Below, piece after piece: positions 5,723 through 53,520 of a stretch of 64,000 nt of DNA (within the stretch, counting starts at the first letter, position 1; each line of letters starts with the position of its first letter). Location of the stretch: assembly GCF_000317085.1 (NCBI RefSeq), contig NC_019702.1, forward strand, positions 2,820,394-2,884,393, written 5' to 3'. The notes beneath the pieces are model-generated. The model ran no database searches. It saw only the letters and a program-made list of their open reading frames with translations, and was not told where the DNA came from. Both the position numbers and the translations under genes were made by a program. The DNA comes from Synechococcus sp. PCC 7502 (GTDB lineage Bacteria; Cyanobacteriota; Cyanobacteriia; Pseudanabaenales; Pseudanabaenaceae).

Positions 5723-7867
5723 ATGACGGCAACAGAAAAAACAATCTCATTCTATGGCAGAGAGATTAAGTTAAGAATTGGCTTGTTGGCACCACAGGCA
5801 GGTGGATCGGTATTAATACAATGCGGCGAGACTGCAGTTTTGGTTACAGCCACACGGGGAGAAGCAAGGGAAGGCATAGATTTTTTACCTCTAATGGTTG
5901 ACTATGAGGAGAGACTATATGCAGCAGGCAGAATACCCGGTGGATTTCTAAGACGAGAAGGTCGTCCACCCGAAAAGGCAATCTTAATTTGTCGGTTGAT
6001 TGATCGCCCCATGCGTCCTCTATTTCCTAACTGGATTCGGGATGATATTCAGATTGTAGCAACAACAATGGCATTAGATGAAAAGTCTCCACCTGATGTT
6101 TTGGCAGTAACTGCGGCTTCGATCGCTGCTTTAGTAGCTGGATTACCCTTTAATGGTCCGATGGCGGGCGTGAGAGTTGGTCTAGTGGGTGATGAATTTA
6201 TTATCAATCCCACCTATGCAGAAGTGGAAGCAGGAGACCTCGACCTAGTGGTTGCAGGCACCCCTGAAGGCATCATTATGGTAGAAGCGGGAGCCAATCA
6301 ACTGCCAGAACAGGACATGATCGAGGCGATCGAATTTGGGTATGAGGCGGTGCAAGAGCTAATCAAAGCACAGCAGATAATTATGGCAGAACTGGGTATT
6401 GCTCCAGTCGATTTAGTACCACCACCCGTAGATTTAACCCTACAAAGCTTTATTAATGAGCAAGTTGGCACCAAAATTCAACAGGTAGTCGCTAGTCTTG
6501 AAAAAAATCGCACCGTTAGAGATGCCGCCCTCGATCAAATTAAAAAAGAACTCAAAGCGGCGATCGCTAACCTCGAAGAAACTGATCCGATTAAGCTTGT
6601 AGCTACCGATAAAGTCGTGAGCAGCACTTTTAAAGAAATCACTAAAATTTATATGCGCCGACAGGTGATTGAAGACAGCATCAGAATTGATGGACGTAAA
6701 CTAGATGAAGTTCGTCCCGTTTCTGCGGATACAGGTATTCTTCCCCGTGTGCATGGCAGTGGTTTATTTAATCGTGGTCTAACTCAGGTCTTATCCATTG
6801 CTACCTTGGGTTCTCCTTCCGATGCTCAAGAAATGGATGATCTGCATCCCGATGAGAAGAAAAGATACTTGCACCACTACAATATGCCTCCCTATTCTGT
6901 TGGTGAAGTTAAACCCATGAGATCCCCCGGCAGAAGAGAAATTGGGCATGGGGCTTTAGCTGAACGGGCAATTGTGCCTGTACTGCCACCCGCCCAAAAG
7001 TTCCCCTATGTGCTTAGAGTCGTATCCGAAGTTCTATCATCCAATGGTTCCACATCTATGGGTTCCGTTTGTGCTTCGACATTAGCTCTGATGGATGCAG
7101 GGGTGCCAATCACCAAACCCGTAAGTGGTGTTGCTATGGGATTAATTCAAGAGGGAGATCAGACTCGCATCTTAACGGATATACAGGGAATTGAGGATTT
7201 CTTGGGAGACATGGATTTTAAAGTCGCAGGCACCGATACTGGAATTACAGCCTTACAAATGGATATGAAAATCACTGGTATTGCCATGAGTACTATTCGG
7301 GATGCGATTATTCAAGCTAAAGCAGGAAGAATGCACATACTAGACAAAATGATGGAAGCGATTCCTACCTCAAGGCTAGAACTATCACCCTATGCGCCAA
7401 GGCTATTAACTTTGCAGATTAACCCCGATCAAATTGGACTAGTGATTGGACCTGGTGGTCGTAACATCAAAGGCATTACCGAAGAAACAGGGGCAAAGGT
7501 TGACATCCAAGATGATGGTACTGTAACCATTTCATCCACTAATGGTGATGGAGCTAAACGTGCCAAAATACTAATCGAGAGTATGACTCGTCGGGTCAGT
7601 GCAGGCGATGTCTATGTCGGCAAAGTCATGCGGATAATTCCCATTGGTGCCTTTGTCGAATTCTTGCCCGGCAAAGAAGGAATGGTACATATCTCGCAAC
7701 TGGCAGAGGGACGAGTCGGGAAAGTTGAAGATGAAGTTGCGGTCGGCGATGAGGTCATTATCAAAATTCGTGAAGTTGACCAAAGGGGACGCTACAATCT
7801 AACTCGCTTAGGAATTCATCCTGATGAAGCTGCTGCTGCTAAAGCCGCTTTTGAGTCTGCTAATTAG
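5723..7867 (+). CDS. pnp: Polyribonucleotide nucleotidyltransferase (PNPase)
   Basis: 714 residues, full length. Two RNase PH domains flank a helical domain: the first starts at the N-terminus with [20 protein letters not shown], the second near residue 325 with [12 protein letters not shown]. The catalytic-side segments [12 protein letters not shown] and [11 protein letters not shown] are intact. A KH domain ([14 protein letters not shown]) and an S1 domain ([26 protein letters not shown]) close the protein. It is a phosphorolytic 3'-5' exoribonuclease for mRNA and tRNA turnover, and cyanobacterial PNPase can also add heteropolymeric tails. A purine-rich ribosome site (AGAAGAAG) lies just upstream of the ATG. 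Confidence 0.97.
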
Positions 7868-7903
7868 TTACTTTTAACTTGACTTTAACTTGAGTTTATA
7901 GTA

Positions 7904-7925
7904 AAGGGGACAAAATTATCCCCTT
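7904..7925 (+). terminator. Probable terminator after pnp
   Basis: AAGGGGA and TCCCCTT form a perfect 7-bp stem around an 8-base loop, 37 bp after the pnp stop. The following T-run is weak (ACGTTTAAAAT), so termination may be partial. Confidence 0.5.
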
Positions 7926-7956
7926 ACGTTTAAAATCGGCAGTTTTCGATGTACAG

Positions 7957-8331
7957 CTAACTAAATCGAATTATAGGTAATTGTAAACCCCATGCGATCG
8001 CCAATATTCGTAAAGAGGCAATTGTGATCAAACTACAACCAAATGCCCATGATCGCTGCATTACTAACGCCTGTAAAAGTTGATATAAAATGATAGCGAT
8101 AAACACAAATGGATAATTATTAGGCTGTCCCTCTGCTCTCCCAAAACGCCCAGATATGGCGTCAGAAAAACTGGTAACAGAGATTTTAATAAGCCTTGTC
8201 GATGGCTCTAGCGTTAAGGTTGTCGGATTAGTAAAACTACCTAGTGAATAACTTTCTAACTCCGCTTTTTCACAGATAAAATCTTCAATAGCTGTTAATT
8301 TATCCTCTATCGCATTAAGGAAAGATGGCAA
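7957..8331 (-). CDS. Hypothetical protein with hydrophobic C-terminal half
   Basis: 124 residues, not recognised. The first 80 residues are polar and mixed. The C-terminal part has one clear hydrophobic segment (YPFVFIAIILYQLLQALVM) and a second weaker one, so it may be membrane attached. It converges on pnp and lies at the edge of the transposon-rich patch, so it may itself be a remnant or a recent arrival. Confidence 0.4.
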   Translation of the reverse strand: MPSFLNAIEDKLTAIEDFICEKAELESYSLGSFTNPTTLTLEPSTRLIKISVTSFSDAISGRFGRAEGQPNNYPFVFIAIILYQLLQALVMQRSWAFGCSLITIASLRILAIAWGLQLPIIRFS

Positions 8332-8370
8332 ATCGGAAGTACTCCTAATCTGGGATTCATAGGTAGTGCA

Positions 8371-8529
8371 TCAAAGTAAAGTAGAGTAGGTGGAAACATT
8401 ATCCCAAGTCCACTTTCTATTGGTTAAATTAGCTCTCTGGGCAGCAGTTGTCTTTTTTCGAGAGTGAATCCATATCCAATTAAAAAATGTGACTAATAAT
8501 CTGACTGCTATTTCATTCCACTCCCATAA
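8371..8529 (-). pseudogene. Transposase-like C-terminal remnant cut by the IS630 element
   Basis: The minus strand reads from the IS630 junction into WEWNEIAVRLLVTFFNWIW, then RKKTTAAQRANLTNRKWTW, and stops at 8371-8373. The TAAQRAxLTxRxWxW ending is familiar from cyanobacterial DDE transposase tails. There is no start codon because IS630 sits where the rest should be. Family identity is by resemblance only. Confidence 0.45.
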
Positions 8530-9661
8530 TACCAAATCGAAGAGTATAGGCTACAGATGGTATAAATATATAAACCGAGTTCAAAGAAAAAAATGGCAGG
8601 AGTATACAAATTAGAGATCAGCGAAAGTGAAGAAGAGCTAAAACATATGCTGAGAGTGCAAAAGACCGCATCAGATAAAGAAAGAATTCAGATGCTGTAT
8701 CTGTTAAAAACAAAACAAGCAAGCACAATCCAGACAGCATCGACAATACTGGGACGGCATCGAGTTACATTGCAAGATTGGTTAGGGAATTATCGCAAAG
8801 GGGGAATAGTAGGACTAAACCTAGAACAGGGCGAAAACAGAGTATTCCACAATGGGCGCAGAAAGCATTGATAAAAAAGCTGGAAGAAGCAGAAGGCTTT
8901 GAAAGTTATGGGCAGATCTGCCAATGGTTAGAGAACCAATTAGGAATCAAATCAAACTATAAAACTGTGCATCATCTAGTCCGATATCGGCTGAAAGCCA
9001 GACCGAAAGTGACACGTCCAGTCAGCGCAGGAAAGTCAGAAGAGCAAGTAGAAGCATATAAAAAAACCTTGCCAGTATTATAAGCATGATTGCCTGGTTC
9101 GGCATTAATATAATCGGACTAAATGGCAAAGTGAGATTCTTTTGTCAAGATGAAACACGAATTGGGTTAAAGACAATTAGTGGAAGGAAGATCACAGCAA
9201 GAGGAGTCAAACCCAAAGGTAAAGTTCAGTGGCAGTTTAAGGCAACTTACCTCTATCGAATTGTAGAACCATCAACAGGGGAAAGCTTTTTCTATGAATT
9301 TACTCACCTTAATAGTGAATGCTTCCAAGTATTTCTGAACTTAGTAAGCGCATATTTTCAAGGTGACATCATCGTTATGCAAGTGGATCAAGCAGGAGCA
9401 CACAGAGCAAAACGGTTAAAGATTCCTAAAAATATTATTTTGCTATTTCAGCCTGCCCATGCACCTGAGACTAATCCCATTGAAAGAGTGTGGCAGCATT
9501 TCAAATTAGGGTTGAGGTGGAAACTGCCAAAAGATCTTGACCAGTTGCGTGCATTAATGCGGGAAAGGTTAGAAGTTATGACTCAAGAGGTAATTGCTTC
9601 GATTGTTGGGTGGGATTATATTTTAGAGGCTTTATCTGTAGCTCGTATTTAAAGTTTGGTA
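8530..9661 (+). mobile_element. IS630-family insertion sequence
   Basis: The left end reads TA-CCAAA...GCTACAGAT and the right end reads ATCTGTAGC...TTTGG-TA, an imperfect terminal inverted repeat with TA at both outer edges, as expected from IS630/Tc1-type insertion at TA. Between the ends lies one split transposase gene. The first 34 bases of the left end occur again, perfectly, at 31047-31080. The element interrupts an accessory locus: transposase-tail DNA lies on its left and the 3' part of an excisionase-like gene on its right. Confidence 0.88.
8593..9652 (+). pseudogene. IS630 transposase, split by two -1 frame changes
   Basis: Three consecutive frames together make one IS630 transposase. 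8593-8871 encodes the helix-turn-helix domain (TASTILGRHRVTLQDWL). The second frame, which stops at 9083, continues with RTGRKQSIPQW and SYGQICQWLENQLG. The third, to 9652, carries the DDE core with QDETRIGL, VDQAGAHRAKRL and ETNPIERVW supplying D, D and E. The second change lies at an A-AAA-AAC heptamer (9060-9067), a classic -1 slippery site, so that one could be programmed. The first, near 8815-8850, has no evident slippery motif and looks like decay. The catalytic triad itself is intact. Confidence 0.85.
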
Positions 9662-9888
9662 TAACAGGCTTCTCTTGGCGGACTCTTCGTAACTGGAGAC
9701 TACAGGGTAATTTAAACGAAGGTATCCATTACAAGCGAATTAACAAGCGTAATGATGTTTACTATAACCATGAATTGTTGAATGACTACATTGCAAATAT
9801 AGGCGACTCAAACGCACATCAAGTTGCTATCGATAACTATCTGCGATCGCTACCAAGCAATCAAAAACGTAAACGTAAAGTGTCTTAA
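9660..9888 (+). pseudogene. Excisionase-like DNA-binding protein, 3' part only
   Basis: Just right of the IS630 end, the frame reads GFSWRTLRNWRLQGNLNEG, then a VYYNHELLNDYIANIGD segment and NYLRSLPSNQK, ending at 9886-9888. This resembles small cyanobacterial excisionase or integrase-associated proteins, but the N-terminus is missing and is not found left of the IS. A tRNA 3' end follows 90 bp downstream, the usual setting for the attachment end of an integrated element. The family call rests on remembered resemblance. Confidence 0.55.
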
Positions 9889-9978
9889 GAATTAGTATAA
9901 AATTGGTATACCTAATTATTGACAATAGCAAGAGCTTTTAATATCAATCGTTTTAGATAGGTGATTCCTACCATCGCA

Positions 9979-10014
9979 CCGCAGAGGTCAGGGGTTCGAG
10001 TCTCCTATTCTCCA
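9979..10014 (+). other. tRNA 3'-end fragment, candidate attachment site remnant
   Basis: The sequence has a complete T arm (stem AGGGG/CTCCT around loop TTCGAGT), an acceptor strand ATTCTCC and a discriminator A. A variable loop AGGTC precedes the T arm. No matching GGAGAAT strand, D arm or anticodon arm lies upstream, so this is not a working tRNA gene. A 3' tRNA piece of this size is what site-specific integration into a tRNA gene leaves at the far end of an element. The neighbouring excisionase-like fragment supports that reading. Confidence 0.6.
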
Positions 10015-10212
10015 TATATTCAAAATTTCAATTTGTCTAGCCATTTAGGAACTTTAGCTACTTTGTTGTAGTGATCTAGCTCATAGGAGAGAGTTAGATT
10101 GTTTGTAGCGATTGTAGCGATGGATTGGATTTTGGATCCAAAAATATTGATTTTTAGGTTGTTGCTCTACAAACGTAAAACGTAAAAACACCACTGCCAG
10201 AACTTAAAGTGA

Positions 10213-10656
10213 TTGTTAATCGAACAGGGTAAAGAAGTTCAGGGACAAACATTGGAGACTCCTGATAGTGGTTTGGTGGTCTATCTCACAGAATTTGGCT
10301 GGGTTAAGGTATTTTGTCAGGACTTCAAAAATAAAGCCCGATATTACATCCTCCACCTCAAAGATTTAGAATTACTCAAACAAGTCACTCGGCTAAAGTT
10401 CAAATAAATCAATGATAGACATTGGCAAATTGAATATTTCCACAAAGCTATCAAGCAGGTTTGTAATCATTTCTTTTGCTCCCACTATGCTTTACCAAGT
10501 TACAAAAAATGCGAATTGATGGCTTAATCACTAATTTGTATCAGATATCGAGGGACTTATTTATACCTGTCATTCGTCAATTTATCTTGGAAAATCTCAC
10601 GCAATCTGTTTCAGTTTGACTTCATATCTCGCTATTTCTGTCAATGCGTAAGTCCT
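10213..10656 (+). pseudogene. IS701/IS4-like transposase remnant
   Basis: The frame contains YLTEFGWVKVFCQDFKN and YYILHLKDLELLK, then an in-frame TAA at 10405-10407. It continues with HWQIEYFHKAIKQVCNHFF, the W-IE-x-FH-x-x-IKQ-x-C block typical of IS701/IS4 DDE transposases. Frame is lost after about 10480. The right edge CTATTTCTGTCAATGCGTAAGTCCT matches, in reverse, the edge at 32799-32823, so this is the end of the same IS family. The upstream stretch 10015-10200 holds nothing I recognise. Confidence 0.6.
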
Positions 10657-10669
10657 ATAAACTTAAAAC

Positions 10670-12355
10670 CTACTTAATTACCGCAAAGCTCGGAGCCACG
10701 TCAGATTTAGAGATGGTTGGTGCCCAAAATCCCTTAGCGTAGATATTACCTTTCGCTTGAGCAATTTGGGTATAGGCTTCCTTAATTTGAGTGTTAATTG
10801 CCATAGTCTTAACATCATAGAACTGGGTTGCTAACTTAGGATAAAAGCCTATGCCTAATACTGGTAAAAGAAAAACGAAAGCGATCGCTAATTCCCGTGG
10901 TTTAGCATCACTAAAAATTACTTCCGCAGGCAAGGAGCAATTGGTACCAAAACATACTGCTTCCTGTTCACCCATTCCCCTTTCTTTGTAGGCATCAATC
11001 ACGCAAGCAGGAAATACGCCCGTATTGTAAAACAATTGTCTGAGCATCGATAGCAAATAAACTGGAGTTAATATCAAGCCCACTGAGGCTAAAATGACAG
11101 TACCAAACCTGAAGGGAGAGCTATAAACCTCGCTAGTTGCCAAACCAATAAAAATCGATAATTCACTGGCAAATCCGCTCATACCAGGTAAAGCCAAGGA
11201 AGCCATCACCCCTGCGGTAAATAAAGCAAATACTTTGGGCATAAGTTTACCAATTTCACCCATTTCTTCCAAAATTAGAGTGTGGGTGCGATCATAGGTA
11301 ATACCTGCCAAGAAAAATAAAAGAGCGGCAATTAAACCGTGGGACAGCATTTGTAATAATGCCCCATTAATACCTAGGTCGGTAAATGCTGCTATTCCAA
11401 TTAATACAAATCCCATGTGCGAAACTGAAGAATAAGCTAAGCGTCGCTTCATATTGGGCTGGGCAAAGGAATTTAATCCACCATAAATAATATTAACAAC
11501 CCCAAGAATGGCAAGAATCGGCGCAAAGTAAACATGGGCATTGGGTAACATTTCCAAATTAAAGCGAATTAAGCCATATCCACCCATTTTTAACAGCACA
11601 CCAGCCAAGATCATAGATATAGGAGCAGAAGCCTCGCCGTGGGCATCGGGTAGCCAAGTGTGCATTGGAAAGATCGCTAGTTTAACCCCAAAGGCAATTA
11701 GTAAGCCTGCATAGAGTAGGAGTTCGATGCCAAGAGGATAGTCCTTCATTCCCAGTTCCACCATATCGAAGGTGACGTTATTTCCATAAAAGGCCATACC
11801 CAAGGCTGCTAATAGGATAAATATTGAAGCTCCCGCCGTATATAGTAAAAACTTCGTAGCGGCATAACGACGATTTTGTCCACCCCAAATTGATATCAAC
11901 AAATAAACTGGAACTAGCTCTAATTCCCACATAATGAAAAGTAGAAGAGCGTCTTGAGCCACAAATACGCCAACTTGGGCAGCATACAGCAGCAGAATTA
12001 AAAAGAAAAATAGTTTGGGCTTGCGATCTACTTGCCACGCCGATAGTATTGCCAAAGTTGTTACTAATCCAGCTAATAGGACTAAAGGCACAGAAAGACC
12101 ATCTACAGAAAGCGACCAGTTTAAGCCAAGTTGTGGAACCCAAGCATACTTTTCAGCAAGTTGAAAGGTCGAATCATTTGGATTATAATTCTGCCAAAAG
12201 GCATAAACCATTAGTAAAAAGTCTGCGAGTCCAACCCCTACGGCATACCATCTCACAAACTTACTATACTTATCGGGAATTAAAGGGATGACCAACGCAG
12301 CAATAAGTGGTAAGAGGATGATTGTGGTCAGCCACGGAAATTGATTTGTAATCAC
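10670..12355 (-). CDS. ndhD: NAD(P)H-quinone oxidoreductase subunit 4 (NdhD)
   Basis: 561 residues with about 14 membrane segments. The proton-channel core motifs of the ND4/NuoM family are present: the glutamate in [14 protein letters not shown] and the lysine in the segment [20 protein letters not shown]. NdhD is a membrane-arm subunit of the thylakoid NDH-1 complex, which serves respiration, cyclic electron flow and, with some paralogues, CO2 uptake. The long C-terminal loop is typical of cyanobacterial NdhD, but I cannot tell D1/D2 from D3/D4 types with confidence. It stands alone, with no ndhF or cupA/B adjacent. 12356-12558 upstream is AT-rich and presumably holds its promoter. Confidence 0.95.
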
Positions 12356-13910: not shown

Positions 13911-13950
13911 GAGCCTATTTGACATCTATAAATGTTAGTATAGAGCTAAA

Positions 13951-14697
13951 ATGCAGTACACAAGCAGCTTAACAGGTAAAGAATGGGAAATCATAGAGCC
14001 ACTGTTACCAGAGAGAAAGAAGACCCGACCTTCAAATTGGACAAAAAGGGAAATTGTTAACGGTGTTTTATATCAACTCAAGAATGGATGTAATTGGATT
14101 GACCTATCCAAAGATCTACCACCAACTCAACCGTATTCTGGCACTACAAGCAATGGCGAAATGAAGGCGTAATTAAACTTCATAGCATGGTGCGTGTACA
14201 GACTAAAAGAAAGAATATGGACAACATTAATCATGGTTGATTCTCAGGCAACAAAGAATACTTGTAATGCTGAAGGATTTTGTGTTTACAAATGTATTAA
14301 TGGGATTAAAAGACACTTAGCCGTTGATAGCCTAGGATTTCCATTTTTTACCCATTGCACCAAAGCTAGTGTTACTGATGACCAAGGATTAATCGAAATG
14401 TTTACTGAAAACATAGATTACTTCAAAGCTAAGCCTATGAATATTCCCAAGATTACAATACTTGTAGATGATGGTTATCATCCTAAGAAGACTATGGAGG
14501 AACTAGAGAAAATCTACCCAAAGATCATGAGTAAGATTAAGTCTGAGCAATCTCCTAAACTAACAAAGGCAGAAAAAACAGCAGCAGGTAAGTCAGGCTT
14601 TGTACCCCTAAAGATGCGATGGATAGTAGAAAGGTCAAATGCTTGGGTTGAGAGATGTAAAATCTTAGTTAAGAACTATGAGAGGACTCTTTTTAAT
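13951..14697 (+). pseudogene. IS5-A transposase, frameshifted and interrupted
   Basis: 13951-14172 gives the N-terminal part (SLTGKEWEIIEPLLPERKK, then LYQLKNGCNW). It drifts out of frame after LPP, where a single base is missing relative to STVFWHYKQWRNEG in another frame. The catalytic half reads MVDSQATKNTCNAEGFCVYK, GIKRHLAVDSLGFPFF and WIVERSNAWVERCKILVKN. The two-frame layout is normal for this IS5 (IS427-type) group, but the extra frameshift, a short deletion next to NTCNA and the IS200/IS605 insertion make it dead. The last codons lie at 16141-16200. Confidence 0.8.
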
Positions 14698-14962
14698 CTC
14701 TTGGGTAAATTCCCCGCCCGTTGGGGCGGCTTTCGATTAACATTCAGGAATGAGTGAATATATACACAAAAAACATAACGTAAGTGTATTGATATATCAT
14801 CTTGTATTTCCAGCAAAATATTGAAGGGCGGTATTTGATCAAGAAGTAGATCAGGTACTAAAAGAAGTTTGTTTAGAGATAGAGAAACGATATGAGGTTA
14901 AATTTTTAGAAATAGGAGTAGATAAAGATCATGTTCATTATCTTGTTCAATCAGTACCGACA

Positions 14963-14966
14963 TATA
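14963..14966. repeat. TATA target duplication, left of IS5-B
   Basis: TATA precedes GAGCC at 14967 and recurs at 15873-15876 after GGCTC. Excision of the element with one copy restores the tnpA reading frame. Confidence 0.8.
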
Positions 14967-15872
14967 GAGCCTGTTTCATATCTCATGAGTAGCAATTGTT
15001 TTTAGCATCAAACGAATAAAGCAAAGATTGAGTTTAGCTGTAGCATTAACGAGAGTTCTCTCAAAGTTCTTAACTAAGATTTTGCATCTTTCAACCCAAG
15101 CATTTGACCTTTCAATTACCCACCTTGTCGGCACAACTACAAACCCAGACAGACCTTTTTCTGCCTTCTGTTGCTTTGATACCTTAGGAGAAATTTCAAA
15201 CCTAATCTTAGTCATAATCTCAGGATAAACCTTCTGTAAATCAGTCGTCAATTTTTCGATATGATAACCACTATCCAGCAATATCGTAGTTAGGGTAATG
15301 TCATCTGGCTTCGATTTGAAGTAATCAATGTTAAACGTTAACATCTCAATCAGTCCTTGGTCATCTGATACATTTGCTCTTGTTAAATAGGTGAAAAAAG
15401 GAAATCCCAGTATGTCAACGGCTAAATGTCTTTTGATCCCGTTAGTTGCTTTGTAGGAGCAGAAGCCCTTGGATTCTATACTTGCATTACAGGTATTTTT
15501 CACTGCTTGTGAGTCAATGATGATTAAAGTTGTCCATTTTGATTTTTTTTGACTGTTCACGGGCTGTTGCATGCAAAGCTTCCATAATCGCAGTAAATGT
15601 ACCTGTATCTTTCCACTCCTTGTAGTATCGATACACTGTAGAGAATGGTGGTAAGTCTCGGGGCATATCTCGCCAATTACAACCGTTTTTAAGTTGGTAG
15701 AGTATGCCGTCTAAAATTTGTCTTTTTGTCCAAGTTGGTGGTCTAGTTTGCTTTTTCTTTGGGAGCAATGGTTCTATAATTTCCCATTCTTTATCTGTTA
15801 GGCTACTTGAGTATGGATTTAGCATTTTCTAAGCATCATACATCTTGCTCATAATAGATATGAAACAGGCTC
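14967..15872 (-). mobile_element. IS5-family element B, innermost, apparently intact
   Basis: 906 bp with matching ends GAGCCTGTTTCATATCT, flanked by TATA on both sides. It carries an uninterrupted two-frame transposase on the minus strand. It is related to IS5-A but not identical, since its terminal repeat reads GCCTGTTTCAT where IS5-A reads GCCTATTTGA. It is the youngest of the three nested insertions. Confidence 0.9.
14976..15825 (-). CDS. IS5-B transposase, orfA/orfB with -1 frameshift
   Basis: orfA (15825-15514, 103 residues) carries SLTDKEWEIIEPLLPKKKQ and YKEWKDTGTFTAIMEALH. orfB (15572-14976) carries the catalytic part: IIDSQAVKNTCN with the first Asp, GIKRHLAVDILGFPFF, the second Asp in LLDSGYH, and WVIERSNAWVERCKIL with the Glu. 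The two frames overlap by 59 bases around a run of eight A residues (sense strand, 15542-15549), a typical site for programmed -1 frameshifting in the IS427 group. The fused product would be about 280 residues. No stop codon or deletion is seen outside the programmed shift, so this copy may be active. Confidence 0.85.
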
Positions 15873-15876
15873 TATA
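15873..15876. repeat. TATA target duplication, right of IS5-B
   Basis: Partner of the TATA at 14963-14966. Confidence 0.8.
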
Positions 15877-50779: not shown

Positions 50780-51622
50780 TTATTCCTCAACTAAAGTACT
50801 GAGAGAGTCTCTTCGCAATAGGTTTATGACCCGTCGTTTAATCTCAACGAAATCCGTGGAAAGCTTAATATCAAGTTCACGATTTTCTGGAAGTGGAATA
50901 TTCACCTCTGCTTTAATTTGTCCGGGAGAAGCACTCATCACATAAATACGTTGGGATAGATAAATTGCTTCTTCGACATCATGGGTAATCATCAGTACAG
51001 TTACATGGGTTTGTTTCCACAGTTCGAGTAAAAACTGCTGCATTTGTTCTTTAGTTTGAGCATCCAATGCCCCAAATGGCTCATCCATCAAAAGTACTGC
51101 GGGTTCATTTGCTAAAGCCCGAGCGATCGCTACTCTTTGTTTCATCCCTCCCGATAGTTGCTTAGGATAGTTATTAGCAAAATTTAATAGCCCCACCACA
51201 TTCAAGAAATAAGACACTCGTTCGCGCCTTTCCGCCTTAGACATTTTTTGAAACTGCAACCCGAAAGCGACATTTTGGGCTACGGTCAGCCAAGGGTAAA
51301 GGGTATAGCCTTGAAAAACCATGCCACGATCCGACCCCGGTCTGCCAGTCACAATTTGTTGATCGACTATTACTTGCCCAGAAGATGGTGGTAAAAGTCC
51401 CGCAATAATATTCAGCAGGGTCGATTTTCCACAGCCTGACGTCCCTAGAAGGCAGATGAATTCATGGGAGAAAATTTGGAAGTTAATGTCTTGAAGAATA
51501 ACTAACTTTTGTTTATTGTTACCTTGGTAGGACTTAAACAGATTTTTGACCTCTAGCTTAGGACTGGCAATCAATGAAGATTGATTCGTCAATTCTTGAA
51601 TATTCTGAGGTTGCAGTTGCAT
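50780..51622 (-). CDS. ABC importer ATP-binding protein, NitT/TauT/SsuB type
   Basis: 280 residues. Walker A GTSGCGKS at 60-67, signature LSGGMKQR at 156-163, Walker B VLLMDEPFGALD at about 176-187, and the switch histidine in MITHDVEEAI. The Q-loop is VFQGYTLYPWL. First gene of the operon, so it carries the likely promoter in 51623-51810. I see no clear NtcA (GTA-N8-TAC) site there. Confidence 0.95.
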   Translation of the reverse strand: MQLQPQNIQELTNQSSLIASPKLEVKNLFKSYQGNNKQKLVILQDINFQIFSHEFICLLGTSGCGKSTLLNIIAGLLPPSSGQVIVDQQIVTGRPGSDRGMVFQGYTLYPWLTVAQNVAFGLQFQKMSKAERRERVSYFLNVVGLLNFANNYPKQLSGGMKQRVAIARALANEPAVLLMDEPFGALDAQTKEQMQQFLLELWKQTHVTVLMITHDVEEAIYLSQRIYVMSASPGQIKAEVNIPLPENRELDIKLSTDFVEIKRRVINLLRRDSLSTLVEE

Positions 51623-51815
51623 ACAAAGCTTTAAGGGAACATTAGCAGAAACTTTTAGAAGTTAAATTTAAATAGTTGAAAGTATATGAACTTGTATTAA
51701 GACCCATTTATAGCCCTTCAATATCCGACTAATTGTATTTAATAATACTAAACATCTCAGTATTTGCGATCGCCGATGGTTGAATTTTTCTCAATGAAAC
51801 TCTTACTCAAGTGCA

Positions 51816-51890
51816 ATGGCTAGGACTGAAACATCTATAGTGAATCATCAGCAAGCCCCGATTTTAGAAGCGATCGCCAAGCTAAACTAA
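51816..51890 (+). pseudogene. Orphaned 5' end of the decarboxylase gene
   Basis: An ATG at 51816 reads MARTETSIVNHQQAPI, then LEAIAKLN and a TAA at 51888-51890. From VNHQQ onward it is identical to the start of the decarboxylase at 53479 until the repeat ends, after which it diverges into two codons and a stop. The upstream 8 residues exist only here, so this is the original start of the decarboxylase before the insertion. Confidence 0.8.
51836..51881. repeat. 46-bp direct repeat, left copy
   Basis: It begins TATAGTGAATCATC and ends GCGATCGCCAAG, identical to 53475-53520 at all 46 positions. Bases immediately outside (C/T on the left, C/T on the right) differ. It is a target duplication of the decarboxylase 5' end and contains one HIP1 site. 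Confidence 0.93.
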
Positions 51891-53474
51891 AGTAGCTGTA
51901 AATTAAGTGAGGTTAAATCTGACTAGCAAGGTCTAAGAAATATAGATCTGAGGATGGGTTTATATTTTCCTCTTCATTTGAAAAGAAAACTTCTATATTT
52001 TTATCAGTACCAACAGGAATGTCTAATATTTTAGAAAACCTTAGGGCTAAATCCTCAACTAATTTTCTAGCTGAGTCTTCAGATTTGGCTGGATTTACCC
52101 ATATGATTAAAGGTATGAATGGTAGTCTTTGCCACTTATATTTACTAAGAGCTTTTTGGGCTTTCCCTAAACTTGACTTAATTTGTAGTGGATAAACAGT
52201 ACTATTAACTTTGAAAAATAGATCCCATTTTAATTTTATGTCAGCATCGCTATCATGATATGAACTCCAAGCAGTTACCCCACTTAATCTTTCAAGAGCC
52301 GCCTTTACATTATTTATCGCAATGCTTCCTAGTTTATGTTCAGGCGTGTCCATCTCATAAGACTTATGAGAACTAAACCTGTGTGAGTAGTAATCTGCTC
52401 TCGACTCTGTTATTGGATAAATTTTATTGCCTAGACAACCAAATCTACTGTATTGATCTTCTAACCATTTAAACTCTATCGAATTGCCAGCTTCTTTTAA
52501 GCAATAGATATCCTCAGATATCTTAAATTTTTTGACTTCAATAGGTATTTTAAGTTTGGCTAAATTGTTTTTATCCCTACCAATACGCTTTTCAATAGAG
52601 TTTGGATGCTCTACTATATAGTTACTCTCTCTAATTTTAGTTTCATCTACAAAGATTGATAAATGATAGTAAGATAATGCGTCATTTTCTTCAGAGCTAA
52701 AAAAATCGTCAATTTTCTCTGTTACGCAGTCCCAAAATTCTGGGTTAGCTTCTAAACGATATAATATGTTTGAAGATGAATACTCCTGACCTTGATAGCT
52801 TATTGAATCAGGAATACTTAAAGTCTTTCCATTCTTAATTTTGACAAGAGATTTCTTTTGTTGGTTTCTTAGGTAGATTGATGCTGGATAAGGATACCAA
52901 TAGCTACCATCCTTCGTTCTTTTAATGATATTACCAAATCCTAAGCTATAGGAATATTCGGTTGTTTCACCATCTCTAAGTATTTTTTCTGTCACTCTGT
53001 TAAAAGGCAGCCTAATTTCAGTAAGATTACACTTGTCTTCTTCAGAAGGATAATAAAGCCCATCAGCTTCACTAGAAACTACTGGAAGTTTGTTGATTTT
53101 TAATTGATTAAGTAATTTACTAGTTATAGGTAGTTGACTACTACTTTTTTGAGCTTGAATCTGATTTTTATTTTCCTTATCTGATAAGTCAATTATCTGT
53201 AGTATTTGACTATGCTTAGAAATGTAATCCTTGTAGCATCCTTCCCATTCAAGAATAATGTTTCTGAGAGGCAGTTTTAACTCAGATGATTTTACTTTAG
53301 TATCAATACTGAACATTTGTTCTGATGAAATACCAAACCGATACTCATATATGCCTAATTTTTTTGCGAGAGCAGTTAATTCATCTAAGCATGAACTTAC
53401 AGAAGAACTGGTCATCCTTTTAAAAATTCTTGATTTTTATAATTATTATAGGGTATCTGAATTACTAGTAAATT
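51882..53474. mobile_element. 1.6-kb insertion carrying one predicted nuclease gene
   Basis: The DNA between the two 46-bp copies holds a single gene and short flanks. I find no HIP1 octamer in it, although HIP1 recurs every few hundred bases on both sides, and it is visibly more AT-rich, so it is foreign. No terminal inverted repeats, transposase or recombinase gene are present. Left and right flanks inside the repeats are about 30 bp and 60 bp. Confidence 0.78.
51913..53415 (-). CDS. Predicted PD-(D/E)XK nuclease-like protein in a long-duplication insertion
   Basis: 500 residues, no family recognised. The C-terminal third has the arrangement of a PD-(D/E)XK fold: a helix with Glu residues (EHKLGSIAINNVKAALERL, 359-377), then D398 in KWDLFF, a strand, and QIK at 411-413 (D-x12-QxK). 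A hydrophobic strand (LPFIPLIIWV, 431-440) follows. The N-terminal 350 residues may recognise DNA or another partner; a segment FVDETKIRESNY lies at 255-266. No signal peptide or membrane segment is seen. It stands alone without a methylase. The setting between long target duplications and the lack of HIP1 fit an orphan restriction-type enzyme, but this is an inference. Confidence 0.6.
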   Translation of the reverse strand: MTSSSVSSCLDELTALAKKLGIYEYRFGISSEQMFSIDTKVKSSELKLPLRNIILEWEGCYKDYISKHSQILQIIDLSDKENKNQIQAQKSSSQLPITSKLLNQLKINKLPVVSSEADGLYYPSEEDKCNLTEIRLPFNRVTEKILRDGETTEYSYSLGFGNIIKRTKDGSYWYPYPASIYLRNQQKKSLVKIKNGKTLSIPDSISYQGQEYSSSNILYRLEANPEFWDCVTEKIDDFFSSEENDALSYYHLSIFVDETKIRESNYIVEHPNSIEKRIGRDKNNLAKLKIPIEVKKFKISEDIYCLKEAGNSIEFKWLEDQYSRFGCLGNKIYPITESRADYYSHRFSSHKSYEMDTPEHKLGSIAINNVKAALERLSGVTAWSSYHDSDADIKLKWDLFFKVNSTVYPLQIKSSLGKAQKALSKYKWQRLPFIPLIIWVNPAKSEDSARKLVEDLALRFSKILDIPVGTDKNIEVFFSNEEENINPSSDLYFLDLASQI

Positions 53475-53520
53475 TATAGTGAATCATCAGCAAGCCCCGA
53501 TTTTAGAAGCGATCGCCAAG
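53475..53520. repeat. 46-bp direct repeat, right copy
   Basis: Partner of 51836-51881. The GTG at 53479 within it is now the first possible start of the decarboxylase. There is no good ribosome-binding site, and an in-frame TGA lies at 53458-53460, just upstream. Confidence 0.93.

Follow-up and report, generated by a model that had tools for sequence, protein, structure and literature searches.

A nuclease-like gene between two copies of a decarboxylase 5' end in Synechococcus sp. PCC 7502: a probable insertion at or next to HIP1

Insertion with a long target duplication is known from restriction-modification genes, according to the passages of PMC1643837 and PMC3031569 that treat it, where Nobusato et al. 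2000 is cited for Helicobacter pylori. The palindrome HIP1 (GCGATCGC), which is highly abundant in cyanobacterial genomes, is also of interest here. The part of PMC4390886 concerned with HIP1 describes its role as little known and mentions some evidence that links it to site-specific and illegitimate recombination, citing Akiyama 1998 and Robinson 1997. The same part places a repeat module (SDR5) between the third and fourth bases of HIP1. Among open-licence PMC papers, we found none dealing with the insertion of genes at HIP1 together with gene-end duplication.

The locus described here belongs to the 3.58-Mb genome of Synechococcus sp. PCC 7502 (three contigs), and positions refer to the window, the whole stretch of 64,000 nucleotides analysed (C3:2820394-2884393). 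A direct repeat of 49 bp, 98% identical, lies on the plus strand at 51833-51881 and 53472-53520, with 46 bp (51836-51881) identical; as a pattern, the repeat matched twice in the window but never in 100 shuffles. The native 5' end of a decarboxylase gene forms the downstream copy (HIP1 at 53509-53516), and the upstream copy duplicates it (HIP1 at 51870-51877). The segment of about 1.6 kb between them (51882-53471) holds a single gene, P0001 (51913-53415, minus strand), whose 500-aa product has a TumA-antitoxin-like N-terminus and a C-terminal nuclease-like block, as judged by profile matches and alignment. On the other side of the insert the target gene is intact: P0002 (53479-54897, plus strand) is a 472-aa Orn/Lys/Arg decarboxylase frame from its native GTG, matching OKR_DC_1 at E 2e-66 with 224.9 bits, above the Pfam gathering score of 27. 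A relict frame of 24 codons, MARTETSIVNHQQAPILEAIAKLN*, opens at ATG 51816 and crosses the upstream repeat copy (51816-51890, plus strand). The preliminary description had reported an ATG at 51816 and a decarboxylase gene beginning at GTG 53479, with an in-frame TGA upstream (53458-53460, plus strand) and no ribosome-binding site. The ATG, which is in frame with the upstream copy, the GTG, the TGA and the absence of a Shine-Dalgarno-like motif were confirmed.

As in the described insertions with long target duplication (Nobusato et al. 2000), the target repeat is long and direct, and the target gene is intact on one side. Those insertions often involve restriction-modification genes, to go by the same passages, and one insert elsewhere in this genome is such a set. 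In it, PIN, type I specificity and N6-methylase/HsdR_N genes lie between 151-bp direct repeats, 95% identical, from the 3' end of a lipoate ligase gene (L184 3394-7911, C3:143394-147911), and it is likely a mobile restriction-modification set. The window locus differs from the described insertions in that a lone nuclease-like gene makes up the cargo, a methylase being absent between the repeats, and in-gene breakpoints in this genome cluster at HIP1. An IS or composite transposon insertion was ruled out: ORF and Pfam checks showed no transposase in the inserted segment, and the inverted repeats found do not bound it. Elsewhere in the window, transposase-like ORFs occur with IS-end repeats (8778-9652 and 13949-15876), including a 41-bp sequence with about 40 pool copies.

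We consider that an insertion with a 46-49 bp target duplication at or next to HIP1 probably explains the locus. The 1.6-kb segment with P0001 would have moved into the first 14 codons of the decarboxylase, at or beside HIP1, and the event would have left a target duplication spanning HIP1 back to 4-7 bases before the GTG. The downstream copy would then rebuild the full reading frame from the native GTG, and the upstream copy would be a dead relict. Transcription of the decarboxylase would start from the 63 bp that separate it from the divergent P0001. The insertion of the preliminary description is supported to this extent: the event duplicated the decarboxylase 5' end, and what now precedes the intact gene is the right end of the insert. 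It would also mean that a gene can survive insertion within its first codons.

At the same site, a comparable structure is found in G001, the one other genome of the genus compared. A diverged copy of the first 39 bases of its decarboxylase lies 644 bp upstream of the gene. This 39-bp core has 8 mismatches to its own gene, and the relict is equally distant (8/39) from both decarboxylase genes. A Uma2 gene (PF05685, E 4.6e-31) lies between the copy and the decarboxylase, ending six bases before the GTG. Like P0001, it is a nuclease-type gene in this position, preceded by a copy of the decarboxylase 5' end; unlike P0001, it encodes an unrelated protein on the decarboxylase's strand, and the copy is more diverged. 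An empty site was not found in G001, where the insert is different and the flanks differ, and its decarboxylase and rsmG lie on different contigs.

A third copy of the decarboxylase 5' end (88%) stands beside pheA in the present genome, where HIP1 links it to a duplicate of the pheA 3' end, so that one simple insertion cannot account for every copy. The third copy sides with the downstream rather than the upstream copy at 2 of the 4 informative bases before the GTG; this would fit an older downstream context, with too few bases to decide. At this place, two copies of the pheA 3' end (64 bp, 91%) flank a 158-aa gene (L003 1452-1551 and 2186-2249, C3:1886878-1887675). The outer pheA copy, fused via HIP1 to the decarboxylase 5' relict, is 987 kb from the decarboxylase. 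The upstream flanks of the five core copies in both genomes showed no likeness beyond chance.

These joints also bear on a history of tandem duplication and decay, in which unequal recombination between short repeats (e.g. HIP1) was followed by deletions that left one 5' end, the nuclease gene being a former neighbour. The joint of the decarboxylase 5' end to the second pheA 3' end copy (L003 1452-1551) is the novel one that unequal recombination between two HIP1 sites should produce, and in G001 the gene next upstream of the decarboxylase is pheA. In the window, however, the joint past HIP1 enters sequence unlike pheA or any gene found, and such a history needs one more deletion. The window copy is also recent, since 46 bp are identical, which counts against this history. 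Overall, we regard tandem duplication as unlikely.

It is quite improbable that the repeat of 39-45 bp acts as a recombination site at which cassettes –the nuclease here, Uma2 in G001– come and go at the decarboxylase start. Two genomes do share the position and the core with unrelated cargo, and the third core copy adjoins another gene, o158 (L003). Yet the core pattern (<=3 mismatches) has only 3 occurrences here and 2 in G001, against 0 in both for the reversed control. Moreover, the targets of the other insertions in this genome are different sequences, 39-151 bp long, and the inserted segment has no recombinase gene.

That the insertion severed the gene from a true ATG (51816) and its promoter and left GTG 53479 as a makeshift start, as first proposed, can hardly be upheld: the ATG does share the frame of the upstream copy, and the sequence preceding the intact gene is foreign to that of G001, but the aligned residue carries a start codon in 28 of 30 family loci (TTG or GTG in 13), and the ATG lies out of frame within a transporter gene fragment.

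The 30 loci are this one, that of G001 and 28 others of the family, drawn from 35 family matches. The codon aligned to GTG 53479 is ATG in 15, TTG in 11, GTG in 2 and TTA in 2, giving a start-type codon (ATG, GTG or TTG) in 28. The G001 decarboxylase, 78% identical, has its GTG start at the same place, and a stop codon three codons upstream, with an earlier start absent. Since only 2 of the 30 loci have a Shine-Dalgarno-like motif (28 lack it by the same test), the missing motif is uninformative here. From the G001 start and the 30-locus comparison, GTG 53479 is the native start, and a GTG without Shine-Dalgarno motif the normal state of this gene. The claim that the decarboxylase lost its own start codon needs correction, as the duplication would have preserved it, and the absent ribosome-binding site is no sign of damage.

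ATG 51816 falls in a 68-bp fragment of an EamA transporter gene with an internal stop (51758-51825, plus strand), which is 91% identical to C3:2900288-2900355. The whole EamA gene (PF00892) lies in that region, 28 kb from the fragment. Translated in the frame of the transporter, the window gives VFAIADG*IFLNETLTQVQWLG where the whole gene has VFAIIFGRIFLSETLTQVQWLG, and the ATG arises from CAA TGG read out of frame. Its agreement in frame with the relict decarboxylase start can be chance, at one in three. Position 51816 is thus not supported as the original ATG; as a native start, it was rejected on the 30-locus start comparison and the EamA frame. The fragment (window 51758-51825) is inverted relative to the whole gene (L075 15989-16056) and may be the mark of an old rearrangement.

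Under the favored insertion, the decarboxylase protein would be unchanged, and only its 5' non-coding DNA would have been replaced. Its present promoter, if its own, would have to sit in the 63 bp between the divergent genes. A promoter-like site, TTTACT-16-TATAAT, precedes P0001 (53445-53472, minus strand; 10/12), and a weak one, TTAAAA-18-TATTAT, precedes the decarboxylase (53420-53449, plus strand; 9/12). Both are consensus matches only, in a region where the scan gave 11 sites against 8.5 expected by chance. By simple scan, no plus-strand sigma-70-like site was seen in 51600-51840.

A link between the insertion and polyamine metabolism had also been suggested. P0002 is placed among the decarboxylases by its OKR_DC_1 match, with a putative substrate, but the link itself is weak, with another long decarboxylase in the genome: a 658-aa frame with an Orn_Arg_deC_N domain (C3:2038181). 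Because this frame has the length of an arginine decarboxylase, polyamine synthesis need not depend on P0002. In the part of PMC2242806 that gives these lengths, Sll1683 has 483 aa and other Synechocystis arginine decarboxylases have 659 and 695 aa. By length P0002 is nearer to Sll1683, and our guess is that it is of the Sll1683 type.

Regarding the inserted gene, no Pfam domain was found in P0001. Its residues 7-72 resemble TumA (NF045776) weakly, at E 3.2e-5 and 24 bits against an NCBIfam cut-off of 100, and also match PADLOC PDC-M44A (E 2.1e-6). The C-terminal part matches another cyanobacterial protein (37% over 181-466, E 2.8e-36), with a second, weaker match, and D392, W397-D398 and Q411-x-K413 of this block are conserved in all three aligned proteins. 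We take these residues to form a PD-(D/E)XK motif, which would make the block a putative PD-(D/E)XK nuclease, one without a Pfam match. A structure model of P0001 alone had a mean pLDDT of 34 and was unusable.

Compared with the TumE-TumA system (NF045776 TumA, PF20126 TumE), P0001 is alike in residues 7-72, below the curated cut-off, and unlike in being a 500-aa fusion rather than a 76-aa antitoxin. A TumE gene is, moreover, the cargo of another gene-end insertion in this genome, between 65-bp direct repeats and adjoining a PIN gene (L193 5003-5801, C3:655003-655801). On another contig, a 76-aa TumA-like ORF is 36% identical to P0001 residues 7-70 (L005, C1:30445-30621).

Among 38 genomes of the family and 386 of the phylum, the present genome alone has P0001 at full length. 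Partial matches, mostly to the TumA-like end alone, occurred in 2 of the family and 10 of the phylum genomes. Of 23 pattern matches in genome_contigs, none was confirmed as a relative; viral_contigs and phages gave none, and plasmids gave one record with a partial match. Around the relatives in L071 and L072, no convincing pair of flanking repeats was seen.

At the genome level, similar structures were found beyond this locus. We scanned for two-copy direct repeats of 35-250 bp with a spacing of 250-10,000 bp in a discovery set of 64 stretches of the genome (1,298,208 bases, excluding the CRISPR part of L093) and in a held-out set of 400,000 bases, a total of 1,698,208 bases with the window included. 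Dropped pairs were multi-copy, or had both copies coding or lying in one ORF (3 and 4 of the 19 discovery pairs, 16 and 4 of the 22 held-out pairs). Of the 12 discovery pairs kept, 8 duplicate a gene end with the other copy intact, and both held-out pairs kept are of this kind. In total, 14 of 41 pairs were kept and 10 of these 14 are gene-end duplications, the other four being intergenic. In two other cyanobacteria (400,000 bases each), gene-end duplications made up 3 of 13 kept pairs in G013 and 0 of 6 in G059, after dropping 404 and 4 of 421 and 110 and 4 of 120 pairs, respectively.

Five cases concern 5' ends: those of the decarboxylase, CbiD, pirin, a CobQ-like amidotransferase and a 164-aa protein. 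The start points of their duplications range from 7 bases ahead of the called start codon to 6 bases past it. Selection may have kept the duplications that reach the start, as only such events would leave a working gene. In the case of L156, the target is only a 102-aa pyruvate kinase fragment. Nuclease, toxin or restriction-type cargo is present in 4 of the 10 inserts, P0001 counted, and the remaining inserts hold genes for transport or metabolism, or ones that match nothing in Pfam. In G001, different contigs carry the CbiD gene and the genes of its insert, and the same goes for the amidotransferase and the surroundings of its insert; this fits insertion but proves nothing, the assembly being of 230 contigs.

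Among individual loci, the 103-bp repeats of the CobQ-like amidotransferase 5' end enclose TPR and ATPase (STAND-like) genes (L115 14568-16950, C3:3244568-3246950). A DUF5615/DUF433 pair lies between 39-bp repeats (L107 9345-10519, C3:1709345-1710519). L093 contains a large CRISPR array with a 36-bp repeat (6520-10985, C3:2786520-2790985).

The in-gene ends of these duplications tend to lie near HIP1. In the discovery set, this end was <=4 nt from HIP1 in 5 of 8 gene-end cases, against 2.6% of random positions (45,000 draws near gene ends), a limit set after the first cases were seen and applied to small numbers with BLAST ends as boundaries. Using each gene's own affected end, the count of 5 compares with 0.93 expected (P 4e-4). 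When 25 gene-fragment duplications chosen more loosely were examined, HIP1 was near 6 of their 32 in-gene boundaries, compared with 3.2% (P 5e-4), and near 5 of 31 without the window (P 3e-3). The HIP1 test was set down ahead of the held-out sample, which gave 1 of 2 boundaries at HIP1 and brought the gene-end cases in the genome to 6 of 10. In G013, which was already in hand, with one boundary previously seen and the rows not blind, the figure was 1 of 3. For held-out and G013 boundaries combined, the count was 2 of 5; a binomial worked out by hand with a rate of 2.6% puts P at about 0.006. The HIP1 link, in part post hoc, did persist in the small held-out sample.

It is possible, if somewhat doubtful, that HIP1 is a preferred break or junction site where foreign genes –often nuclease, toxin-antitoxin or restriction sets– enter gene ends, with the duplication rebuilding the target, and that the decarboxylase 5' end was hit more than once in the genus. 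If the HIP1 link holds, it would offer a testable role in breakage or recombination and would explain the landing sites of selfish gene sets. HIP1 is likewise the junction in the recombination attributed to it in the cited part of PMC4390886 (Akiyama 1998, Robinson 1997, SDR5); those cases are plasmid recombination, excision and a small repeat, whereas here whole genes come with gene-end duplication. As with SDR5, the boundary at L107 falls inside HIP1, between nt 3 and 4.
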